This document shows, piece after piece, positions 5,140 to 31,509 of a DNA stretch of 49,183 bases (position 1 is the first letter of the stretch; every line of letters starts with the position of its first letter). Position numbers and translations under genes: made by a program. Source of the stretch: Sulfurospirillum sp. SCADC. Lineage in GTDB: Bacteria > Campylobacterota > Campylobacteria > Campylobacterales > Sulfurospirillaceae. Location: NCBI RefSeq assembly GCF_000743525.1, contig NZ_JQGK01000011.1:2963-52145 (forward strand), read 5' to 3'. The notes beneath the pieces are model-generated. The model made no database searches and had not been told where the DNA came from. It was given only the letters and a program-made list of their open reading frames with translations.

Positions 5140-5156
5140 TTGGAATACAATTTGCT
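5140..5156 (+). promoter_or_regulatory. Sigma-54 promoter of flgB-flgC-fliE
   Basis: TTGGAATACAATTTGCT has GG at 5142-5143 and GC at 5154-5155, exactly ten bases apart, the -24/-12 signature of RpoN. The predicted transcription start is about 5167, some 23 bases before the flgB ATG. Rod and hook genes are RpoN-dependent in Campylobacter and Helicobacter, which fits. Confidence 0.75.
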
Positions 5157-5189
5157 TACATAAAGTATCTCACCACGAAAGGCAAAAAA

Positions 5190-5624
5190 ATGGGTTTTGT
5201 GACCTCTAAATCAAATCCACTTTTAGAAGCAGGTCTTAGCGCCAGAGCTTTGAGACAAGATCTCGTCTCTAGCAATATCGCTAACATCGACACACCATTT
5301 TATAAAGCACGTGATGTTGACTTTGAAACCGCTTTGATTGAGAAGAAAAAAGCGATTTATGGTGAAAATAACGCTGCAACGAAGCTCGAAATGGCGCAAA
5401 CCGATGCGTCACACCTCAGTGCTACCAGCGGTTTTGATAGCTCGCAATCAACGGTGTATCTTAGAGACGGACATATGGCTCGAAATGATGGCAATACGGT
5501 CGATTTAGATGTAGAAACATCGGAATTGGGTAAAAATGCCATGATGTTTAACGCACTTGCATCAGGACTACAAAAAAATGGTCTCATTTTTAAAAGCGTT
5601 ATTGAATATTCGTCTAAAATATAA
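5190..5624 (+). CDS. flgB: Flagellar basal-body rod protein FlgB
   Basis: 144 aa. The N-terminal rod motif SSNIANIDTPFYKARDVDFE (about residues 29-48) and the C-terminal amphipathic helix (LGKNAMMFNALASGLQ) are typical of proximal rod proteins. It is first in flgB-flgC-fliE, preceded by a sigma-54 promoter, and precedes flgC by 9 bases. RBS GAAAGG is well placed. Confidence 0.93.
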   Translation: MGFVTSKSNPLLEAGLSARALRQDLVSSNIANIDTPFYKARDVDFETALIEKKKAIYGENNAATKLEMAQTDASHLSATSGFDSSQSTVYLRDGHMARNDGNTVDLDVETSELGKNAMMFNALASGLQKNGLIFKSVIEYSSKI

Positions 5625-5633
5625 GGAAATACA

Positions 5634-6128
5634 ATGGCATATTTAAGCAGTTTTGACATTAGCAGTTACGGACTCTCTGCACAACGTTTTCGTATGGATG
5701 TGATCAGTTCCAACATCGCCAATGCCAATACGACTCGTACGAGTGAAGGTGGACCGTATCAACGTAAAGATGTTGTCTTTAAAGCGGTTGATTTTAAAAA
5801 AACCTTGAATGCCAAAATTGCCAGTGATAACAACATGTTAGAGTACGAAAATCCGTTGGATGACCCATTCTTGCAAGAGGATGCCAATCCTGCTATAATG
5901 AGCGTTAAAGTGGATAAAGTCGTGCGCGATGAGAGCGAATTTAGGTACAAATATGAGCCTTCCCATCCGGATGCCAATGAAGAGGGTTATGTTGCGTATC
6001 CAAACATTAATCCTGTCATTGAGATGTCCAACCTCGTTGAAGCAACTCGCGCATACCAAGCAAACGTTTCCGCATTTCAAAGTGCAAAATCCATTGCACA
6101 AAGTGCGATTGATATTTTAAAAGGATAA
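5634..6128 (+). CDS. flgC: Flagellar basal-body rod protein FlgC
   Basis: 164 aa. It has the N-terminal SSNIANANTTRT rod motif (about residues 25-36) followed by GPYQRKDVVF, and the C-terminal motif NLVEATRAYQANVSAFQSAK characteristic of FlgC. It forms the proximal rod with FlgB and FliE. An RBS (AAGGAAAT) precedes it, and it ends 5 bases before fliE. Confidence 0.95.
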   Translation: MAYLSSFDISSYGLSAQRFRMDVISSNIANANTTRTSEGGPYQRKDVVFKAVDFKKTLNAKIASDNNMLEYENPLDDPFLQEDANPAIMSVKVDKVVRDESEFRYKYEPSHPDANEEGYVAYPNINPVIEMSNLVEATRAYQANVSAFQSAKSIAQSAIDILKG

Positions 6129-6133
6129 GGTAA

Positions 6134-6430
6134 ATGGCTAGTACAATTGATACGCTTACAGCATTAACCAATACATCCAATACAACGGTTGCAAAGACAG
6201 ATGCCAGTAGTAGTGATTTTTCAAAAATTTTACAAGATTCTCTTGAAGAGATTAACGACACCCAAGTTAAAGGTGACAAAGCGATGGCAGATCTTGCGAC
6301 GGGTGAAGTCAAAGATTTGCACCAAGCAGCGATTGCTATTAACAAAGCAGAAACGAGTATGAAAATGATGTTAGAAATTCGTAACAAAGCCCTGAGTGCT
6401 TATAAAGAGATTTCGAAGACACAGATTTAA
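6134..6430 (+). CDS. fliE: Flagellar hook-basal body complex protein FliE
   Basis: 98 aa, the normal FliE length. The C-terminal half carries the family pattern GEVKDLHQAAIAINKAE...MMLEIRNKALSAYKEI. FliE links the MS ring to the rod and is needed for type III export. It is the last flagellar gene of the operon; ftsI follows 14 bases later and may be read from the same transcript. Confidence 0.93.
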   Translation: MASTIDTLTALTNTSNTTVAKTDASSSDFSKILQDSLEEINDTQVKGDKAMADLATGEVKDLHQAAIAINKAETSMKMMLEIRNKALSAYKEISKTQI

Positions 6431-6444
6431 GTTTTGCCGTTTAC

Positions 6445-8226
6445 ATGGAACAATCTGACGCAAAAAAAATCAAAATCCTTTTTCTCTTTGTGGTTGTCCT
6501 TCTTGGATTTCTCATTTTTCTTGGAACCCTTTTTTATTGGGCAACACTTGATCGAAGACTTCCAAAATTAGAACACAGCGAAGTGAACCACGCCCTTCGT
6601 GGTAATATCATCAGTTCGGATGGCTTCAAAATCGCTACGAGTCAAAAACTTTATAAAGCCCTCGTCGATACACGCAACATTGATCCCAAAAAATTTGACC
6701 TTTTTGTCAAACTCTATTCCCTTTACAGTGGTGATGACCCCAAAGCCGTCGCAGCAACCTTAAATGCCAATGTTGGCAGTACGGTGCTGTCTTACCGCAT
6801 TGACTCCAAGAGTGCTAAGTACCTTCAAGAACTCTCACGAAAGCTTTACAAACTAGGGGTTTTTAAAAGCTATGAAGACCCTAAAACAGGTGTGGCATTT
6901 TTACATGGTCTAAGCGTCATTGAAAGCGGTGAAGACAGACTGTATCCATCCGTTGATTCGGTAACGCCTATTTTAGGCTATGTGAAGAAAATGGAGCAGA
7001 AAAATATTACAAAAACAACAGGGGTTAAAGGCATCGAACGCTTTTACGAAGATAAACTCTCCTCCGTGCAAGACTCTTTAGTCATAGGAGCGCGTGACAT
7101 CTCTAATGCCATTATTTTAGATGGTAATAGTATCTCTTCGCGTCGTTATGATGGCTATGATGTTCATTTGACGGTTTCTTTAAAAATGCAAAAAATCATT
7201 GAAAATGTCTTAGATAAATATCAAAAAAACCTTGAAGCCAAAGAGATCATTGCGGGAATCGTCAATAGCGAAACGGGTGAATTTATCACCCTAGCGTCAA
7301 GCAATCGTTTTAACCCTGATCTCATTGAGAAGAAAGATTATGGAGCGCTCAATATCTCAGCGATTGAGTACATTTACGAGCCAGGTTCTGTGATGAAAAG
7401 CATCACCTTTTCACTGCTGCTTAAAGCGAATAAAATCAATCCGTATGACATCGTCAATGTCTATGGTGGAAGCTACAAGCTGGGAACCAAAGTCATCAAA
7501 GATACCCATAAAGCGGATAAAATCAGTGCAGAAGACATCATCGTCTACTCCAGTAATGTTGGAACGGCACAGATCGCGCAGAAGCTTGACCCGATAGAGT
7601 TTTATCAAGGATTGAAAGATTTTGGATTTTCCGTTCGCAGTGGCATCGATCTTCCGTTTGAAAATCCGGGCGTCATTCCCGCACTCAACCGCTTTAATTC
7701 GCCGATTTATAAAGCAACCGTTGGGTATGGTTATGGTATGAATGCGACATTTATGCAAGTCATCAAGGCGTATAATGCCTTTAATAACAATGGAAGGCTC
7801 ATCAACCTCTCATTGGTGAAAAAACTGGTCTCTCCCACAGGGCAAGAGCTATTTCCTGAAAAAGTTCCTGAGGTACAAGTCATTCCCGTTTCGGTGGCAA
7901 AACGGATGCAGAAGATTTTGATTAAAGTCGTTCAACAAGGTACGGGTACGGGAACAAAAATGGAAGGATTGGAAATAGGGGGCAAAACAGGAACGGCGCA
8001 CATTGCCGAAGATGGCGAGTATGTACGCATCTACAATGGTTCCTTTTTTGGTTTTGTCAACGATAAAAAGAACAAATACACCATTGGCGTATTGGTGCGT
8101 GAAGCGAAGAAAAAACAGGCATATTTTGCGGCACAAAGTGCGGTGCCTGTTTTTAAAGAGATTATCGAAAAACTGGTTGATAACGGCTATTTAACCCCAT
8201 CTGCTGAGATTCAAAACACGCCTTAG
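6445..8226 (+). CDS. ftsI: Penicillin-binding protein 2 / FtsI-type septal transpeptidase
   Basis: 593 aa. A single N-terminal membrane anchor (about residues 8-31) is followed by the class B PBP dimerisation domain (LRGNIISSDG) and a transpeptidase domain with SVMK (catalytic Ser315), SSN (369-371) and KTG (514-516). It cross-links septal peptidoglycan together with FtsW. The position right after flgBC-fliE is a recurring Campylobacterota arrangement. Its stop overlaps that of hemH on the other strand by 4 bases. Confidence 0.92.
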   Translation: MEQSDAKKIKILFLFVVVLLGFLIFLGTLFYWATLDRRLPKLEHSEVNHALRGNIISSDGFKIATSQKLYKALVDTRNIDPKKFDLFVKLYSLYSGDDPKAVAATLNANVGSTVLSYRIDSKSAKYLQELSRKLYKLGVFKSYEDPKTGVAFLHGLSVIESGEDRLYPSVDSVTPILGYVKKMEQKNITKTTGVKGIERFYEDKLSSVQDSLVIGARDISNAIILDGNSISSRRYDGYDVHLTVSLKMQKIIENVLDKYQKNLEAKEIIAGIVNSETGEFITLASSNRFNPDLIEKKDYGALNISAIEYIYEPGSVMKSITFSLLLKANKINPYDIVNVYGGSYKLGTKVIKDTHKADKISAEDIIVYSSNVGTAQIAQKLDPIEFYQGLKDFGFSVRSGIDLPFENPGVIPALNRFNSPIYKATVGYGYGMNATFMQVIKAYNAFNNNGRLINLSLVKKLVSPTGQELFPEKVPEVQVIPVSVAKRMQKILIKVVQQGTGTGTKMEGLEIGGKTGTAHIAEDGEYVRIYNGSFFGFVNDKKNKYTIGVLVREAKKKQAYFAAQSAVPVFKEIIEKLVDNGYLTPSAEIQNTP

Positions 8227-9158
8227 GCAATGAAGCCTTTAATGCACTCCACAAACGCCTCATCATCATTGGGGCATTTTGCGACGATATAGCGCTCAAA
8301 GCCAAGTTTGTGTGCGAGTTCAGCATACTCTTGGCTTAGTTCAAACTCCGTTTCAGAATTGTCGATCGTAAATGAGATGGGAACAATGAGCGCGTTTTTA
8401 TTTTCAAGCGTTGAGAGTTTTTCCTCCATCGAAGGCTCAAGCCATTTAACGGGACCAAGCTTCGACTGATAGGCTAAATGCACCGCTTTAAAGTGTACAT
8501 TTTCCTTCTCTAAAAGTTGCTCAACCAGCTTTACATGTAAACTGATTTCTCTCTCATACGGATCGCCATTGGCGATGATCTTTTGAGGCAGAGAGTGCGC
8601 GGAGAAGATCAGCTCCATTTGCGTTGAATCATTTTCGCCTAATGCTTCTTTGATCTTTTTCACCAGAAGGCGGTTGTAGCTTTCGCTTTCAAAAAAACGA
8701 TCAATGACGCGAATATTTGCTTTAAACTCTAAGGCTTTCGCTACTTTCATAAAATCTTCCACTGAAGACTTCGTGGTCGTGGTTGAGTAGTGCGGATAAA
8801 GCGGTAGCAAGATTACTTCTTCGATTTTTTGAGCTTTAAGTTCCTCAATCAACGCATCGCAAAACGGTGGCGTGTAGCGCATCGCAAAGTTTACATGTAA
8901 AGAAGGAAGTGCCTTTTGCAGCTTCGCAACCAGTTGCTTGGTGTAGCCGACCAAAGGTGATTTTCCTCCGAGTTTTGCGTAGTTGGCTTGGGCTTTTTTG
9001 GTACGTGTTGAGGTAATCATAAACGCGATAAAACGGCGTAAAAGAGCACTTTTGACGGTGATGATATTGGCATCATTGAACATATTGGATAAAAAAACTT
9101 GGACTTCATCCAGGTTATTAGGTCCTCCCATATTGAGCAGGACAAGCGCTTTTTTCAT
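8223..9158 (-). CDS. hemH: Ferrochelatase
   Basis: 311 aa, normal length. Recognisable blocks are the N-terminal LLNMGGPNNLDEV, the RYTPPF segment, and the SAHSLPQKI motif holding the catalytic His (about residue 188), followed by E in the second metal-site region near DNSETEFELSQEY. It inserts iron into protoporphyrin IX, the last step of haem synthesis. Two TTTACATGTAAA palindromes lie inside (8530 and 8890). It is a single gene convergent with ftsI. Confidence 0.93.
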   Translation of the reverse strand: MKKALVLLNMGGPNNLDEVQVFLSNMFNDANIITVKSALLRRFIAFMITSTRTKKAQANYAKLGGKSPLVGYTKQLVAKLQKALPSLHVNFAMRYTPPFCDALIEELKAQKIEEVILLPLYPHYSTTTTKSSVEDFMKVAKALEFKANIRVIDRFFESESYNRLLVKKIKEALGENDSTQMELIFSAHSLPQKIIANGDPYEREISLHVKLVEQLLEKENVHFKAVHLAYQSKLGPVKWLEPSMEEKLSTLENKNALIVPISFTIDNSETEFELSQEYAELAHKLGFERYIVAKCPNDDEAFVECIKGFIA

Positions 9159-9240: not shown

Positions 9241-9882
9241 TTAAGCGTTGTATGAAGATTGAAAATTCTCCCAAAATTTTGCAATCGTCTCTTTGATCTC
9301 AGGCGATGTATACGCCCCTTGTGTTGGATGAAGCATTGCATCGATGCGCGCAGCGAGTAGATCGTAGGTAAACGGTGTTGCTATTGTACTGGTTGATGTC
9401 TCCTCTACAGATGAAAGTGCTGAGGTAGCGTTCGTGAGTGTCACGGCAGTCATCGCGTCAAAACGTTCACGCTCATCTAGGGAGTTGAGCGCACTGACGT
9501 AAGACGCTTTCATCGCATCACTCATAGTGGTAGAAATCATTGAACTTTTATTGGCAATGCCATCTTGCACCATTCCATCGCCATTAAAGTCATATTTTTC
9601 AGCATCGTGCATGAGCAAATTGTAAGCACCTTCATCGCTGAGCGAACTAACGTTGATCTCATTAGCCAGCCCCGTGTAGTGTTGCAAGGTTGAGAGTTCA
9701 TCTTCGCTGAGATGACTCAAAAATGCTTTAGCCGTAGAGAGCTTGACATCACTCTGGACGGCTTCGTGGTATATGGCTTCAAAATCTTCACTGTAAGACG
9801 ATTGCATCGCTGTTCTATCGCTGTTTGGTTGCAGTTGCTTCATTAAACTCACATTGGTTTGATACCGTGTAGACGTTTCCAT
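9241..9882 (-). CDS. Unknown protein, predicted RpoN-dependent
   Basis: 213 aa, not recognised. It has no signal peptide or membrane segment. It is Ser/Thr/Ala-rich and mostly helical, with a DFNGDGMVQDG stretch (about residues 97-107) like a partial EF-hand/dockerin calcium loop; the last ligand position is Ile, so calcium binding is doubtful. The start at 9882 follows a strong AGAGGGG. A near-ideal sigma-54 promoter lies 40-55 bases upstream, which puts it by context in the flagellar regulon. It could be a flagellar or secreted accessory protein; this is inference. Confidence 0.7.
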   Translation of the reverse strand: METSTRYQTNVSLMKQLQPNSDRTAMQSSYSEDFEAIYHEAVQSDVKLSTAKAFLSHLSEDELSTLQHYTGLANEINVSSLSDEGAYNLLMHDAEKYDFNGDGMVQDGIANKSSMISTTMSDAMKASYVSALNSLDERERFDAMTAVTLTNATSALSSVEETSTSTIATPFTYDLLAARIDAMLHPTQGAYTSPEIKETIAKFWENFQSSYNA

Positions 9883-9919
9883 AAGATTGCCCCTCTTAGA
9901 AAATTTACATGCTCAATGC

Positions 9920-9937
9920 AAGCAAAAATTGTGCCGA
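9920..9937 (-). promoter_or_regulatory. Sigma-54 promoter of the 213-aa unknown gene
   Basis: Read on the minus strand this is TCGGCACAATTTTTGCTT: GG (9934-9935) and GC (9922-9923) are separated by exactly ten bases, and the GGCAC..TTGC bases agree well with the RpoN consensus. Transcription would start near 9910, leaving about a 28-nt leader with a good RBS. Confidence 0.75.
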
Positions 9938-9987: not shown

Positions 9988-10674
9988 ATGCAAAATGTCA
10001 TGATTACAGGTGCATCAAAGGGCATTGGCAAAGCAATAGCACAGGCACTTTATACGCGGTATAACCTCATTGTTATTGATCAAGAAACTCCCACGCACAC
10101 CTTTTTCAACCACTTTTACCGTTGCGATCTCAGTCAAAGTGAGGCGATTACTGAAACGATAAGACAGATAAAAAATGACGTAACATCACTTTACGGGCTT
10201 ATCAATAACGTAGGCATGTTTATTCATAAACCGCTTCATGAGCAGACTTTACGCGATTGGGAAAAAGTGATTGCACTCAATCTTACCGTACCGTATCTTC
10301 TTTCGCACGCCTTTGCGCCTCTGTTGACGCACGGACATATCATCAACATCGCTTCAACGCGTGCGTCTATGTCCGAAGCAGGCACGGAGCCTTATTCGGC
10401 GTCCAAAGGTGGTCTCGTTGCATTAACGCATGCACTTTCTATCTCGTTGGCAGGAAAAGTCAGTGTCAATTCTATCAGCCCTGGGTGGATCAACACCGAT
10501 GAAACCTATGAGCCAACCAAAGAAGAGCACGCATGGCATCCGAGCGGCAGAGTTGGCAAAACCAGTGACATTGCTGAGTTTGTGCGCTTTTTGTTGGAGA
10601 GAGAAGACGGGTTTATCACAGGCAGTGACTTCGTGGTTGATGGAGGCGTTTCTAAAAAGATGGTCTATCCATGA
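9988..10674 (+). CDS. Short-chain dehydrogenase/reductase
   Basis: About 228 aa. It has the Rossmann motif TGASKGIG near the N-terminus, NNVG (the NNAG-type motif), a catalytic Ser (IASTRAS) and the YSASK Tyr-x-x-x-Lys pair, then PGWINT, so it should be an active NAD(P)-dependent oxidoreductase. The substrate is unknown. A TTG at 9973 is in frame, but GAAAGGAAT sits correctly before the ATG at 9988. The stop overlaps the next gene (ATGA). Confidence 0.88.
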   Translation: MQNVMITGASKGIGKAIAQALYTRYNLIVIDQETPTHTFFNHFYRCDLSQSEAITETIRQIKNDVTSLYGLINNVGMFIHKPLHEQTLRDWEKVIALNLTVPYLLSHAFAPLLTHGHIINIASTRASMSEAGTEPYSASKGGLVALTHALSISLAGKVSVNSISPGWINTDETYEPTKEEHAWHPSGRVGKTSDIAEFVRFLLEREDGFITGSDFVVDGGVSKKMVYP

Positions 10675-11970: not shown

Positions 11971-11998
11971 CTAGTCAAATTGAAGGGTGATTAAATTC

Positions 11999-13393
11999 AT
12001 GATTACAAAACTTGAAATAAGTGGTTTTAAAACATTTGAAAATTTTGAAATGGAATTTTCTCCGTTTACGATTATTGCCGGACCCAATGCATCAGGTAAA
12101 AGTAATCTTTTTGATGCGTTAGCACTTTTAACGCGTTTAGCAGAAACAGATTTAAAAACTGCATTTAGCGAACAACGAGGCGAAGCTATAGAACTATTTA
12201 CAAAATATGATGATGATTTTGCAGATGAAATTTCTTTTGCTATTGAAATGCTTGTAGATAAAAAAGTTCGTGATAATTGGGGCGGTGAATCAGAACTAAA
12301 ATATACACGTTTAAGGTATGAATTAAAAATAAAAAGAACTATCAATGAACGTGGAATTCTTGATCTTGCCGTTGCCTATGAAGTATTAGTAAATTTAAAA
12401 CACAATGAAGATGTATGGCTTAGAAATCATTTAAAACCTGAAGTAAGAGAGATATGGAGACCAAAAGTTTCAACAGGTAAAAGAGGGAAACCTTATATTC
12501 TTACAGAAGATAGAGAAGGTACTGTAACTATATATTTAGCCCAAGATGGAAAATCAGGGAATAAAAAAGCAACACCTGCTAATGCTGTTTTACAAACAGT
12601 TTTAAGCAGTATAAATTCAGTGGATTTTCCTCATGTTTTTGCCGCAAAAGAGGAGATGCGAAAATGGCGTTTTTTACAACTGAGTCCAGATGCCCTGCGT
12701 AAGCCAAGTCCCTATATGGCGAAAGATACTATTTCGCATCATGGAGAGAATTTAGCGGCTGTTTTGTATCGCATCAAAAATGCAGATATTTCCGCCATTA
12801 AAGATATAGCGAGACGATTAAATAATCTTTTGCCGACAATAGTTGATGTAGATGTATATGATGACAGCGCAAATAAGCAGTTTATTGTAAAAGTGAAAAA
12901 TGATGATGGAAGAGAGTTCTCTTCACGAGTTTTATCTGAGGGAACTTTACGACTTTTGGCATTATGTGTGTTTCTTTATGATGAGACATTTGGAGGATTA
13001 CTCTGTTTTGAAGAACCGGAAAATGGGATACATCCATTTCGTTTAAAAGCCATGGTTGAGTTACTTAATGATTTAAGCATAGATTTTAATGATGTTGATA
13101 TGCCACTTCGTCAAGTTTTGGTTAATACACATTCTCCTGTTTTAGTCGGAGAAGTTTTTCAATTAAAAGAGAAGAAAAATATTTCAGTATGGTTTTCAAG
13201 GTTGATAACGAAGATTACAAAAAAATCTGGTGTCATGAAAAAACTTCATGTTACCAAGATTTTTTCAGTTGATCCAAGTTCACAAGGAACTTTATTCCAA
13301 AATAATGTTGCAGATAATAATGTTACAGAGAAAATTACGCAAGCGGATTTGAAAAACTACCTTCAAACAGCTTATTTCCCTGAAATGATGTAG
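11999..13393 (+). CDS. ABC-like AAA ATPase of a putative defence cassette
   Basis: 464 aa from the ATG at 11999; the in-frame GTG at 11987 leaves no room for the GAAGGG RBS. The N-terminus is like RecF/SMC/OLD ATPases (ITKLEISGFKTFENF), with Walker A GPNASGKS at 28-35. Further on are a signature-like LSEGTLRLLAL (about 312-322), Walker B LCFEEPE (335-341) and a switch NTHSPVL (about 375-381). This is the AAA_21/COG1106 class found in OLD, RloA, AbiLi and AriA. It is AT-rich, lies beside an IS remnant, and the downstream TOPRIM-like gene follows after 10 bases. Antiviral function is inferred from the pairing. Confidence 0.85.
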   Translation: MITKLEISGFKTFENFEMEFSPFTIIAGPNASGKSNLFDALALLTRLAETDLKTAFSEQRGEAIELFTKYDDDFADEISFAIEMLVDKKVRDNWGGESELKYTRLRYELKIKRTINERGILDLAVAYEVLVNLKHNEDVWLRNHLKPEVREIWRPKVSTGKRGKPYILTEDREGTVTIYLAQDGKSGNKKATPANAVLQTVLSSINSVDFPHVFAAKEEMRKWRFLQLSPDALRKPSPYMAKDTISHHGENLAAVLYRIKNADISAIKDIARRLNNLLPTIVDVDVYDDSANKQFIVKVKNDDGREFSSRVLSEGTLRLLALCVFLYDETFGGLLCFEEPENGIHPFRLKAMVELLNDLSIDFNDVDMPLRQVLVNTHSPVLVGEVFQLKEKKNISVWFSRLITKITKKSGVMKKLHVTKIFSVDPSSQGTLFQNNVADNNVTEKITQADLKNYLQTAYFPEMM

Positions 13394-13403
13394 GTCTTAT
13401 TGA

Positions 13404-14054
13404 ATGAGTCAAATTATAACTATTGGGTACATCGTAGAGGGTTCAACAGATGTTCGATTTTTAGAAAATATTATTCGTAGGACATTTGAAGATGTTGCTC
13501 TATCATGTGAGCGAGAGATAGAAATTTATTCAGTAACATGGATAAAAGCAAGTAGAGGGAAGCCATTTGTTGAACAAATTCAAGAGGCGATAAAAGATGC
13601 AGATAGTTTAGGAATAAAATTTTTTTGTGTTCATTGTGATGCAGATGATAACAATGATGAACATGTTCAGCAATATAAAATTATTCCTGCTTTTGAAGCA
13701 TGTGAAAGTTTTAGTGTAGAAAAAAATATAGAACTTGTATCATTAGTCCCAGTATATATGACTGAAGCATGGATGCTAGCAGATAAATCAGTTTTTAAAG
13801 ATGAAATTAGCACTCGATTGAGTGATCGTGAATTGGGAATTGATAAACCTGCAGAAACATACAAGAACCCAAAAGAAATAATAAAAGAAGCAATTAGAAT
13901 TGCACAGTCAGGCTTGTCTCGGAGACGTCAGAAGCTTAATATCTCTGATTTATACTCTCCTTTGGGACAAAAAATTTCTTTACACTCTTTAAAGCAATTA
14001 TCTTCATATCAAAAATTTTTTGAATCAATAAGTAATTTGTTGAACAATGATTAA
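13404..14054 (+). CDS. DUF4276-type TOPRIM-like protein, putative effector
   Basis: 216 aa. The N-terminal strand ends in YIVEGSTDVRFL, with Glu12 as the TOPRIM glutamate, and a DxD (CDADD, 79-82) follows the next hydrophobic strand. TEAWMLAD (120-127) is typical of DUF4276 proteins. TOPRIM-fold partners of OLD-like ATPases are nucleases, so this may be the effector of the upstream ATPase. It is separate from the ATPase rather than fused, as in PARIS-like or class 2 OLD arrangements, though AriB of PARIS is DUF4435. The gene is strongly AT-rich. Confidence 0.75.
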   Translation: MSQIITIGYIVEGSTDVRFLENIIRRTFEDVALSCEREIEIYSVTWIKASRGKPFVEQIQEAIKDADSLGIKFFCVHCDADDNNDEHVQQYKIIPAFEACESFSVEKNIELVSLVPVYMTEAWMLADKSVFKDEISTRLSDRELGIDKPAETYKNPKEIIKEAIRIAQSGLSRRRQKLNISDLYSPLGQKISLHSLKQLSSYQKFFESISNLLNND

Positions 14055-28670: not shown

Positions 28671-29159
28671 ATGAGCAGTTGGATGGAAATTGAAGAGTTT
28701 AGCGGGTTGATGAATTTGGATATTTCTGCCATCAGGTCATTGATTGATGAGGGGAAACTGATCAGCAAAGAAGAAGAGGGGCAGTGCTTTGTAGAAATAA
28801 GCCGTAGTGCGCAAGCGCTCATTCCTGCGACCAAAGGCATTGTGCTTGATGATGCGTATGAAGGCTCTTCAGTAAGTCTAAGCTCTGAATTTGTGGAAAA
28901 AACGGTCGGGGCTATTTTAAGCCTGCATGAAAAAGTGTTGGATGCCAAAGAGGAGACACTCGATGCACTCAAAGGTGAAAACCGCTTTTTAAAAGAGGCA
29001 CTTTTTTCGATGCAAGAGCTTTTTGATGAAGATCGTAAAACGATTGATACCCTGACCAAACAGCTTGGAGTGCTACAAGACGAGCTTGAATTTACCAAAC
29101 GAAAATACAAAATGATGTGGAATAAAGCCGTTGATGGCTATACACCACCTTCACAATAA
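28671..29159 (+). CDS. DUF3972 protein with coiled coil
   Basis: 162 aa. The first part has a helix-turn-helix-like SWMEIEEFSGLMNLDISAIRSLIDEGKL (MerR/excisionase-like). The second, from about residue 78 to 148, is a long heptad helix predicted to coil. It matches the DUF3972 family known from Campylobacterota, of unknown role. It is placed between purE and glyQ in the same direction with 36 bases to glyQ, which contain a palindrome and the glyQ RBS. Confidence 0.72.
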   Translation: MSSWMEIEEFSGLMNLDISAIRSLIDEGKLISKEEEGQCFVEISRSAQALIPATKGIVLDDAYEGSSVSLSSEFVEKTVGAILSLHEKVLDAKEETLDALKGENRFLKEALFSMQELFDEDRKTIDTLTKQLGVLQDELEFTKRKYKMMWNKAVDGYTPPSQ

Positions 29160-29161
29160 TC

Positions 29162-29173
29162 TTTACATGTAAA
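29162..29173. repeat. Intergenic TTTACATGTAAA palindrome
   Basis: An exact copy in the short gap before glyQ, 23 bases upstream of its GTG start. Confidence 0.85.
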
Positions 29174-29195
29174 CAAATAAAGAAGGAAAGAAATA

Positions 29196-30053
29196 GTGCT
29201 TACATTCAGTCAAATGCTTTTAAACCTCCAAACTTTTTGGCAAGATCAAGGCTGTACGATTGTTCAACCTTACGATATGCCTGCAGGGGCTGGAACCTTT
29301 CATAATGCAACGTTTTTACGAAGCTTGAGTAACAAATCGTGGGCAACGGCGTATGTAGCTCCTAGCCGCAGACCCACCGATGGAAGGTACGGCGAAAATC
29401 CAAACCGTTTGGGAAGTTATTATCAGTTTCAAGTGCTCATCAAGCCAAGTCCTGACAACATTCAAGAGCTTTACCTTAAAAGCCTTGAAATGCTAGGACT
29501 GAACATCAAAAAACACGATATTCGTTTCGTCGAAGACAACTGGGAATCGCCAACGCTTGGTGCGTGGGGACTTGGTTGGGAAGTGTGGTTGGATGGTATG
29601 GAAGTCACGCAGTTTACCTATTTTCAACAAGTCGGAGGCATTCCTTGCAGTCCTGTTCCGGTTGAAATTACGTATGGTGTTGAGCGTTTGGCGATGTATT
29701 TGCAAGAGAAAGAGTCGGTCTTTGATTTGGTGTGGAACGAAAACCAATTTGGCGTGACAACGTACGGTGATGTGCACAAACAGAGCGAATATGAGTTTAG
29801 TAAATACAACTTTGAAATCGCTAATGTTTCCATGCTGTTTGATCAATTTGAAAACGCGCAAGTCGAGTGCAAACGCTGCCTTGAAGAGAATTTACCACTG
29901 CCTGCGTATGACTACTGTTTGATGGCGTCGCATACGTTTAACGTACTGGATGCGCGCAAAGCGATCTCGGTGACGCAACGTCAAAACTACATTTTAAAAA
30001 TTCGTGAACTTGCCAAAGGGTGCGCTGTTAAATATAAAGAGGTCGTGGGCTAA
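29196..30053 (+). CDS. glyQ: Glycine--tRNA ligase alpha subunit
   Basis: 285 aa, the normal alpha-subunit length. It has [35 protein letters not shown] and the [17 protein letters not shown] block. It is the catalytic half of the bacterial alpha2beta2 GlyRS. The beta-subunit gene glyS is not within this window. The start is GTG with AGAAGGA upstream. The stop overlaps the next start by 1 base (TAATG). Confidence 0.96.
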
Positions 30054-30786: not shown

Positions 30787-31509
30787 ATGAATAAGTATTT
30801 AGAGCAGTTAATTGAGCTTTCCAAGTTAGACAAAGAGATCGACGATTTTGGTCCACGTATCACCAAAGTTGAGAAAATGTTGAAGCTTTCTTTAGACAAA
30901 GAGAGAGATTTAAAACTCCAAGCAGAGTCTTTTCAAGCGGACATTGCAGACGCTAAACTCAAAAAAGCAAAAAATGAAGCACACCTTGCAGAATTGTCTG
31001 CAAAACTTAAAGATCTTACGAAAAAAAGTGCTTTGGTCAAAACGGCTAAAGAGATTAAAGCCCTTCAACTTGAAGAGGAAATTTCAAAAGAACAGTGTGA
31101 TTTTGCCAATGATGAAATCAACCGCTTAGAGAAAATGATTGATCTTAAACAGACTAATATTTCAGGATTACAAGAGAAAATTGCAGAGGCGGTTAAAGAA
31201 GCCGAAGAGATTAAAGCTTCCATTGATTCTCAGATCCAAGCAATTGAAGAAGAGCGCAGAAATGTGTATCAATCCAAAGATGAACTTGTTTTACAAATGA
31301 GTCAAAAAATCTTAACGTTTTACCAAAAAATTCGTAAATGGGCGGAGAACACAACCGTTGTTCCTGTGAAAAAACAGGCATGTTACGGTTGTTTTATGCG
31401 CATGAATGACAAAACATATGCGAGCGTTTTAAAACAAGATGACATTGTGACATGCCCACATTGTGGTCGTATTTTATACAAAGAGATCGAAGAGGAAGTA
31501 CAGGCGTAA
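30787..31509 (+). CDS. Zinc-ribbon coiled-coil protein, HP0958 (FlgZ)-like
   Basis: 240 aa. A long coiled coil spans about residues 10-175. A C-terminal C4 zinc ribbon follows, with CYGC and CPHC (about 198-226). This architecture matches H. pylori HP0958, which stabilises RpoN (sigma-54) and binds flaA mRNA. That would link it to the sigma-54 promoters seen in this window. The gene follows the NIF3 gene by 14 bases, in the order glyQ-NIF3-zinc ribbon-waaA. Confidence 0.85.
   Translation: MNKYLEQLIELSKLDKEIDDFGPRITKVEKMLKLSLDKERDLKLQAESFQADIADAKLKKAKNEAHLAELSAKLKDLTKKSALVKTAKEIKALQLEEEISKEQCDFANDEINRLEKMIDLKQTNISGLQEKIAEAVKEAEEIKASIDSQIQAIEEERRNVYQSKDELVLQMSQKILTFYQKIRKWAENTTVVPVKKQACYGCFMRMNDKTYASVLKQDDIVTCPHCGRILYKEIEEEVQA

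Follow-up and report, generated by a model that had tools for sequence, protein, structure and literature searches.

A sigma-54-preceded orphan gene of Sulfurospirillum sp. SCADC as a candidate member of the flagellar middle-class regulon

Small proteins that are co-expressed with flagellar genes and in part secreted through the flagellum are known from Campylobacter jejuni as the Feds and the Cia proteins. We liken to them by function an orphan gene for a 213-amino-acid (aa) protein, which lies in a stretch of 49,183 nucleotides (nt) from contig NZ_JQGK01000011.1 of Sulfurospirillum sp. SCADC (termed the window); the Feds are mainly driven by sigma-28, unlike this gene, for which a sigma-54 promoter is predicted. 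RNA sequencing of a C. jejuni rpoN mutant showed decreased expression of 12 flagellar genes, two cluster neighbors, and three orphan genes, one of which was described as flagellum secreted (PMC3353397). Secretion through the flagellar type III system has been described for CiaC (PMC3353397; PMC4626219), and mutants of cj0428 and cj1650 had no motility defect (PMC4626219). Like the RpoN-dependent orphans of C. jejuni (Cj0243c, Cj1650, Cj0428, and CiaC), the gene studied here is hypothetical, appears to be sigma-54 driven, and is located outside flagellar operons, the likeness meant here being one of regulation (Cj1650, for its part, is a reported HP1076 orthologue). With the sigma-54-dependent flagellar middle genes of the Campylobacterota, it shares the motif and the distance to the start codon within the same genome, and their axial members are likewise cysteine-free, but it differs from them in having no similarity to rod, hook, or filament proteins, in its orphan location, and in its presence in few species. 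An earlier reading of the letters alone (the sequence-only reading) had proposed the gene, with its near-ideal sigma-54 promoter, as a candidate for an undescribed flagellar or secreted, flagellum-related component. We consider its membership of the flagellar sigma-54 regulon very probable, because the promoter is conserved, because the site is lost together with the flagellar RpoN, and because the motif is common to the flagellar genes of this genome.

The sequence-only reading had noted GGCAC-N7-GC boxes with an exact N10 spacing directly before the 213-aa open reading frame (ORF), and both the coordinates and the conservation in homologues bear this out. On the minus strand, which runs from a dehydrogenase gene (9988 onward) towards hemH (ATCGGCACAATTTTTGCTTGC...AAGAGGGGCAATCTTATG), the GG is at 9935-9934 and the GC at 9923-9922 (ATCGGCACAATTTTTGCTTGC), with exactly 10 nt between them, and the element lies 53 nt upstream of the ATG of the ORF (9882). 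Taxa are given here under anonymous family or genus labels (f9, f11, f17, and g29), and G- and L-numbers denote genomes and loci; f9 is presumably the Arcobacteraceae, f11 the Campylobacteraceae, f17 a Sulfurimonadaceae-like family, and g29 the C. jejuni group. The gene and its elements are as follows.

9922..9935, minus strand: sigma-54 -24/-12 element GGCACAATTTTTGC, GGCAC-N7-GC, from the sequence and its conservation in 22/22 homologues outside f9
9909..9911, minus strand: predicted transcription start at about 9910, 12 nt past the GC, from promoter geometry
9890..9896, minus strand: probable ribosome-binding site AGAGGGG, from sequence reading
9241..9882, minus strand: gene for the 213-aa cysteine-free orphan protein (termed the N-module), ATG at 9882, from the ORF and homologue comparison
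9556..9591, minus strand: DxNxDG calcium-loop-like motif DFNGDGMVQDGI, codons 98-109, position 12 not acidic

Homologues of the N-module were found in 3/60 close relatives and in only 3/24 genomes of the genus, and the two sister-species homologues are 87% and 58% identical to the protein of the window. Across the phylum, they were present in 15/397 genomes (one match being spurious), in 27/228 f17 genomes (some being truncated or weak matches), and in 13/104 f9 genomes. The -24/-12 match is not due to chance, because a GG[ACT]A-N6-TTGC site was found 34 to 75 nt before the start codon in all 22 homologues outside f9 that have a readable start (three lineages), in none of the 12 f9 homologues (the fourth lineage), and in none of 159 control ORFs; the homologue sequences are related and thus do not represent independent trials, and most of their flanks are independent. 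The control covered the homologue loci, in which 170 ORFs have 150 aa or more; the 11 of these with a site were all family members. The -24 boxes of the homologues include GGAAC, GGAAT, and GGTAT, as in flagellar genes.

The search for homologues and their gene neighbors, which the sequence-only reading had suggested, thus showed a site kept by 22/22 homologues outside f9, and it also showed that their contexts vary, the homologues being scattered over many unrelated gene contexts. The homologue at L003, in a sister genome, is at another location with unalignable flanks and has retained both the site (AGGAACTGATTTTGCTTGT) and its distance. In G205 and G161, an N-module homologue and one or two more genes are inserted between a small ORF and glyQ, and the window has purE, the small ORF, and glyQ without an insert (28671-30053), which suggests that the N-module gene moves as a single-gene unit together with its promoter. 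Outside the phylum, no homologue was found in viral contigs or plasmids, and a short-pattern search of GTDB contigs matched the N-module only in sister Sulfurospirillum.

Published work describes RpoN, FlgRS, and FliA as conserved among the Campylobacterota of the F3 class, whereas Arcobacter has lost them (PMC9321776; PMC2147049). We counted RpoN in 15 genomes carrying the N-module gene and judged the type of RpoN from its neighbors in four of them. Three f9 carriers have no RpoN at all. Another f9 carrier, G328, encodes a full RpoN that has nifH- and nifD/nifK-like genes as neighbors, and the N-module gene of this genome has no -24/-12 site; a further, weak RpoN-like match in G328 was left out of the comparison. 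In contrast, the site is kept in G316 and G418, in each of which a single RpoN gene lies next to an lptB-type ABC gene, so that the promoter tracks the lptB-linked RpoN and not RpoN generally. The genome of the window contains two RpoN genes (L113 and L114), one lptB linked and one in a nif-like cluster. The promoter was confined to genomes that have the flagellar RpoN, and from homology and co-occurrence we infer that RpoN and FlgR probably use this site.

We also looked for the strict Campylobacterota form of the motif, GGHAH-N5-TTGCTT, which occurs twice in the window, versus 0.39 times expected by shuffling: once before the orphan gene and once before flgB, with its GG 48 nt upstream of the flgB ATG, in agreement with the sigma-54-driven flgB listed by the sequence-only reading. 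Genome-wide, the strict motif was found in 35 places, versus 17 for a control pattern read backwards. In 17 of the 35 places, a start codon follows at a distance of 41 to 73 nt, in nearly all cases with a ribosome-binding site, and 11 of these 17 are upstream of flagellar or flagellin-modification genes. The motif precedes flgB, flgE, flgG, flgH, flgI, flgL, flgP, fliK, and pseB, as well as maf, behind a flagellin gene, an AMP-ligase gene beside apparent flagellin-glycosylation genes, and two DnaJ-domain genes (flgE, flgP, and the glycosylation genes were named by sequence reading, others by BLAST to E. coli or by Pfam). Four orphans are also behind the strict motif, namely the 213-aa gene of the window, L088 (120 aa), L118 (243 aa), and L106 (160 aa).

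L106 points to a partner of the N-module. Many f17 homologues have 266 to 359 aa and contain a C-terminal extension with the motif LxxKGAxxFLxxLNxEKIE (termed the KGA module), and the extensions of homologues reach 611 aa. In the genome of the window, a profile of the extensions matched L106 (G000:C18:38870-39390) with 55 bits, and L106 thus corresponds to a free KGA extension; a flagellar-type sigma-54 promoter of its own (GGAACCCTTTTTGCTT) precedes it. The module is present in 98/394 genomes, among them every one of the 15 sampled members of the genus, and is free-standing in many, as a cysteine-free protein of ∼145 to 185 aa. GG-N10-GC sites of the GGAA[CT] type are found 39 to 53 nt upstream in 18 of the 20 KGA genes examined. 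In the seven f11 genomes inspected, the KGA gene adjoins hemH and in most cases has ftsI as its other neighbor, a locality similar to that of the N-module gene in the window, beside flgB-flgC-fliE. Searches of Pfam, NCBIfam, and PDB sequences gave no convincing match for the KGA module, its structure model is of low confidence (predicted local distance difference test [pLDDT] score of 67), and its absence from the 27 g29 genomes tested is a further difference from the C. jejuni orphans. When two proteins are fused in some lineages but come from separate genes under common regulation in others, this is a classical sign that they act together. As this is the arrangement of the N-module and the KGA protein, the two probably act together.

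We then considered the composition of the proteins. Not a single cysteine is found in 32 N-module proteins (9,407 residues) and 20 KGA proteins (3,142 residues), which makes a combined set of 52 sequences and 12,549 aa, against a background of 1.05% cysteine in 118 ORFs of the genus. Within the sigma-54 set of the genome, the axial proteins and export-system substrates FlgB, FlgC, FliE, FlgE, FlgG, FlgL, and FliK have no cysteine either, the cytoplasmic members (enzymes and DnaJ-domain proteins) have 1 to 10, and all four orphans have none. Such exclusion is supportive, but not diagnostic, of a flagellar type III substrate. The N terminus of the orphan protein (METSTRYQTNVSLMKQLQ) is polar, with a short helix first, and shows no signal peptide or lipobox by eye. 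Export by the flagellar type III system is favored by the lack of both cysteine and a signal peptide, and we would put the chances of it at about even. The suggestion of the sequence-only reading that the product is secreted or related to the flagellum thereby gains indirect support, from the 32 cysteine-free members, the lack of a known domain, and the sigma-54-driven fusion partner.

That the protein has no recognized domain, as was first stated from the sequence alone, holds for Pfam, NCBIfam, PHROGs, and PDB, none of which gave a convincing match. Weak Pfam matches to MgtE_N, TEX12, cwf21, and GlutR_dimer were rejected, being below the cut-off or limited to the helical C-terminal extensions. 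AlphaFold confidently models the N-module as a mostly helical single fold (pLDDT of 87; predicted template modeling score [pTM] of 0.81), in which the DxNxDG loop is followed by a small beta hairpin. The model had no Foldseek match at an E value of ≤0.001 and no clearly similar solved structure, and the best VIA match, MltF (Z of 4.0), was treated as noise. Known rod, hook, cap, junction, and filament proteins gave no sequence match, and the fold searches (Foldseek and VIA) could miss a distant fold. The weak EF-hand-like loop mentioned in the sequence-only reading is real but not canonical. The residues D98, N/D100, D/N102, and G103 are conserved in 29 to 32 of the 32 aligned sequences, and the N-module thus has the D-x-[ND]-x-[DN]-G core of EF-hand and dockerin-type calcium loops. 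It differs from these in that position 12 is mostly hydrophobic (I, A, or L) instead of acidic and in that a hairpin, not a helix, follows the loop in the model, so that the protein does not qualify as an EF-hand protein.

Taking these observations together, we lean slightly towards the orphan protein being a flagellar middle-class protein and probably a flagellar type III export substrate, and we regard a flagellum-related function in the wider sense as likely. In our proposal, the gene forms a transcription unit by itself and belongs to the sigma-54 regulon of flagellar middle-class genes. Like the rod and hook genes, it would be transcribed when the export apparatus has been completed, by the flagellar RpoN under activation by FlgS/FlgR, and the product, which is cysteine-free, predicted to be mostly helical, and signal-less, would be sent out via the flagellar type III system and not be kept in the cytoplasm. 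The N-module would be the N-terminal part of a two-module family, acting in this organism with a separate KGA protein, and, speculatively, its DxNxDG loop may bind calcium and aid folding outside the cell.

Several observations weigh against this proposal. The flagellum evidently does without the gene in most of the genus, as only 3/24 genomes carry it, and we therefore regard the N-module protein as accessory and not as a core component. The gene sits outside flagellar operons, the f9 lineage retains it without sigma-54 control, and the two KGA genes without a site are both from the same genus (g50). The AlphaFold model matches no known flagellar fold. The Sec-exported FlgI also has no cysteine, so the absence of this residue occurs in some Sec-exported proteins as well. 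Finally, every one of the 33 carriers with a completeness of 90% or more encodes FliF, but co-occurrence with the flagellum is weak evidence, because FliF is present in 344/397 genomes of the phylum sample anyway.

A small, helical, signal-less, and sigma-54-driven protein might also be a cytoplasmic helper of flagellar assembly, i.e., an export chaperone or regulator like FlgN or HP1076 that is not itself exported, and the C. jejuni RpoN regulon holds Cj1650, which has been called an HP1076 orthologue (PMC3353397). We find this unlikely in view of the absence of cysteine from 32 diverged members and of extensions of up to 611 aa, which would be unusual for a chaperone; moreover, profile searches of PDB sequences, including the solved HP1076 chains, did not yield any chaperone match. 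It seems improbable that the gene answers to a different sigma-54 circuit without a flagellar tie, either through the nif-linked RpoN or through another enhancer-binding protein. The genome of the window does have a second RpoN gene in a nif-like cluster, and the -24 box GGCAC resembles the general consensus more than does the GGAA[CT] found at most flagellar sites of this genome, but genomes with a single, lptB-linked RpoN keep the site, the f9 genome with a nif-linked RpoN lacks it, and the homologues have the -24 boxes of flagellar genes.

The occurrence of the N-module gene at many unrelated places would also suit a self-contained accessory cassette of another function, with an incidental sigma-54 promoter, and in three distinct contexts (L018; L023 and relatives; L025) the gene is found next to genes of RND efflux pumps. 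We judged this association too scattered. Most contexts are pump-free, and of the three that contain pump genes, two belong to f9, in which no sigma-54 site precedes the gene; outside f9, the promoter is the one constant feature. We give a cassette of this kind very little credence. As for an accidental -24/-12 match, loose TGG-N10-TGC patterns do occur at chance frequency in the window, but the contrast of 22/22 with 0/12 and 0/159 refutes this explanation and makes its probability negligible. Loose scans of the window were rejected as a means of finding the promoter: neither TGG-N10-TGC nor GG-N-A-N7-TTGC singled out the site of the orphan gene, and the patterns were at chance level or weakly enriched.

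The other features of the window that bear on the flagellum or adjoin the orphan gene are the following.

5142..5157, plus strand: sigma-54 site of flgB, the sole other strict match in the window, from the motif scan
5190..6430, plus strand: flagellar rod genes flgB, flgC, and fliE, near the orphan gene
6445..8226, plus strand: gene for an ftsI-type penicillin-binding protein
8223..9158, minus strand: hemH (ferrochelatase), the neighbor downstream of the orphan gene
9988..10674, plus strand: divergent short-chain dehydrogenase gene, which shares the intergenic region with the orphan gene
30787-31509: ORF with a C4 zinc-ribbon domain (PF02591)

The last of these agrees with the HP0958-like protein that the sequence-only reading had placed in the window, the PF02591 domain being one that we associate with HP0958-like proteins.

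Among the other genes behind the strict motif, L088:1545-1904 (C4) and L118:1372-2100 (C23) encode orphan, cysteine-free, Ser/Thr-rich proteins that are candidates for the same class as the N-module protein, and the DnaJ-domain proteins of L079:1551-2378 and L105:960-1475, with flagellar-type sigma-54 promoters, are possible flagellum-dedicated co-chaperones. In two of the three contexts with RND pump genes (L018, L023, and L025), these genes are directly upstream of the N-module gene on the same strand. The palindrome TTTACATGTAAA was found 18 times in the 49 kb of the window, within and between genes (8890, 9215, 29162, and 15 more), versus 0 expected by shuffling. It is a HIP1-like, highly iterated element, with 657 copies in the whole genome, from 14 to 792 within the genus (up to 792 in a sister species), and 0 or 1 in sampled genomes outside the family. 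At 11987-14054, an AAA ATPase (AAA_21/AbiEii-like) and a DUF4276-like protein form what looks like a defense or toxin-type pair, which is unmatched in the otherwise collinear region of G019.

As a family, the N-module is new, whereas the kind of regulon in which it is placed is known. Sigma-54 control is among the few sequence signals that give a function class to anonymous genes in the Campylobacterota, and here it ties the orphan gene, and with it the far more widespread KGA module, to flagellar assembly. For nonpathogenic bacteria, this yields a defined set of proteins that are candidates for export, and comparing the presence and absence of RpoN offers a general way to find such genes. More tentatively, and with the balance somewhat against it, environmental, free-living Campylobacterota may possess an undescribed set of flagellum-timed and flagellum-exported proteins, made up of two or more interchangeable modules (the N-module and the KGA module among them), fused or split according to lineage, and of other orphans, for example L088 and L118; in these bacteria, the flagellum would then serve as a general secretion channel or as the bearer of an accessory structure.
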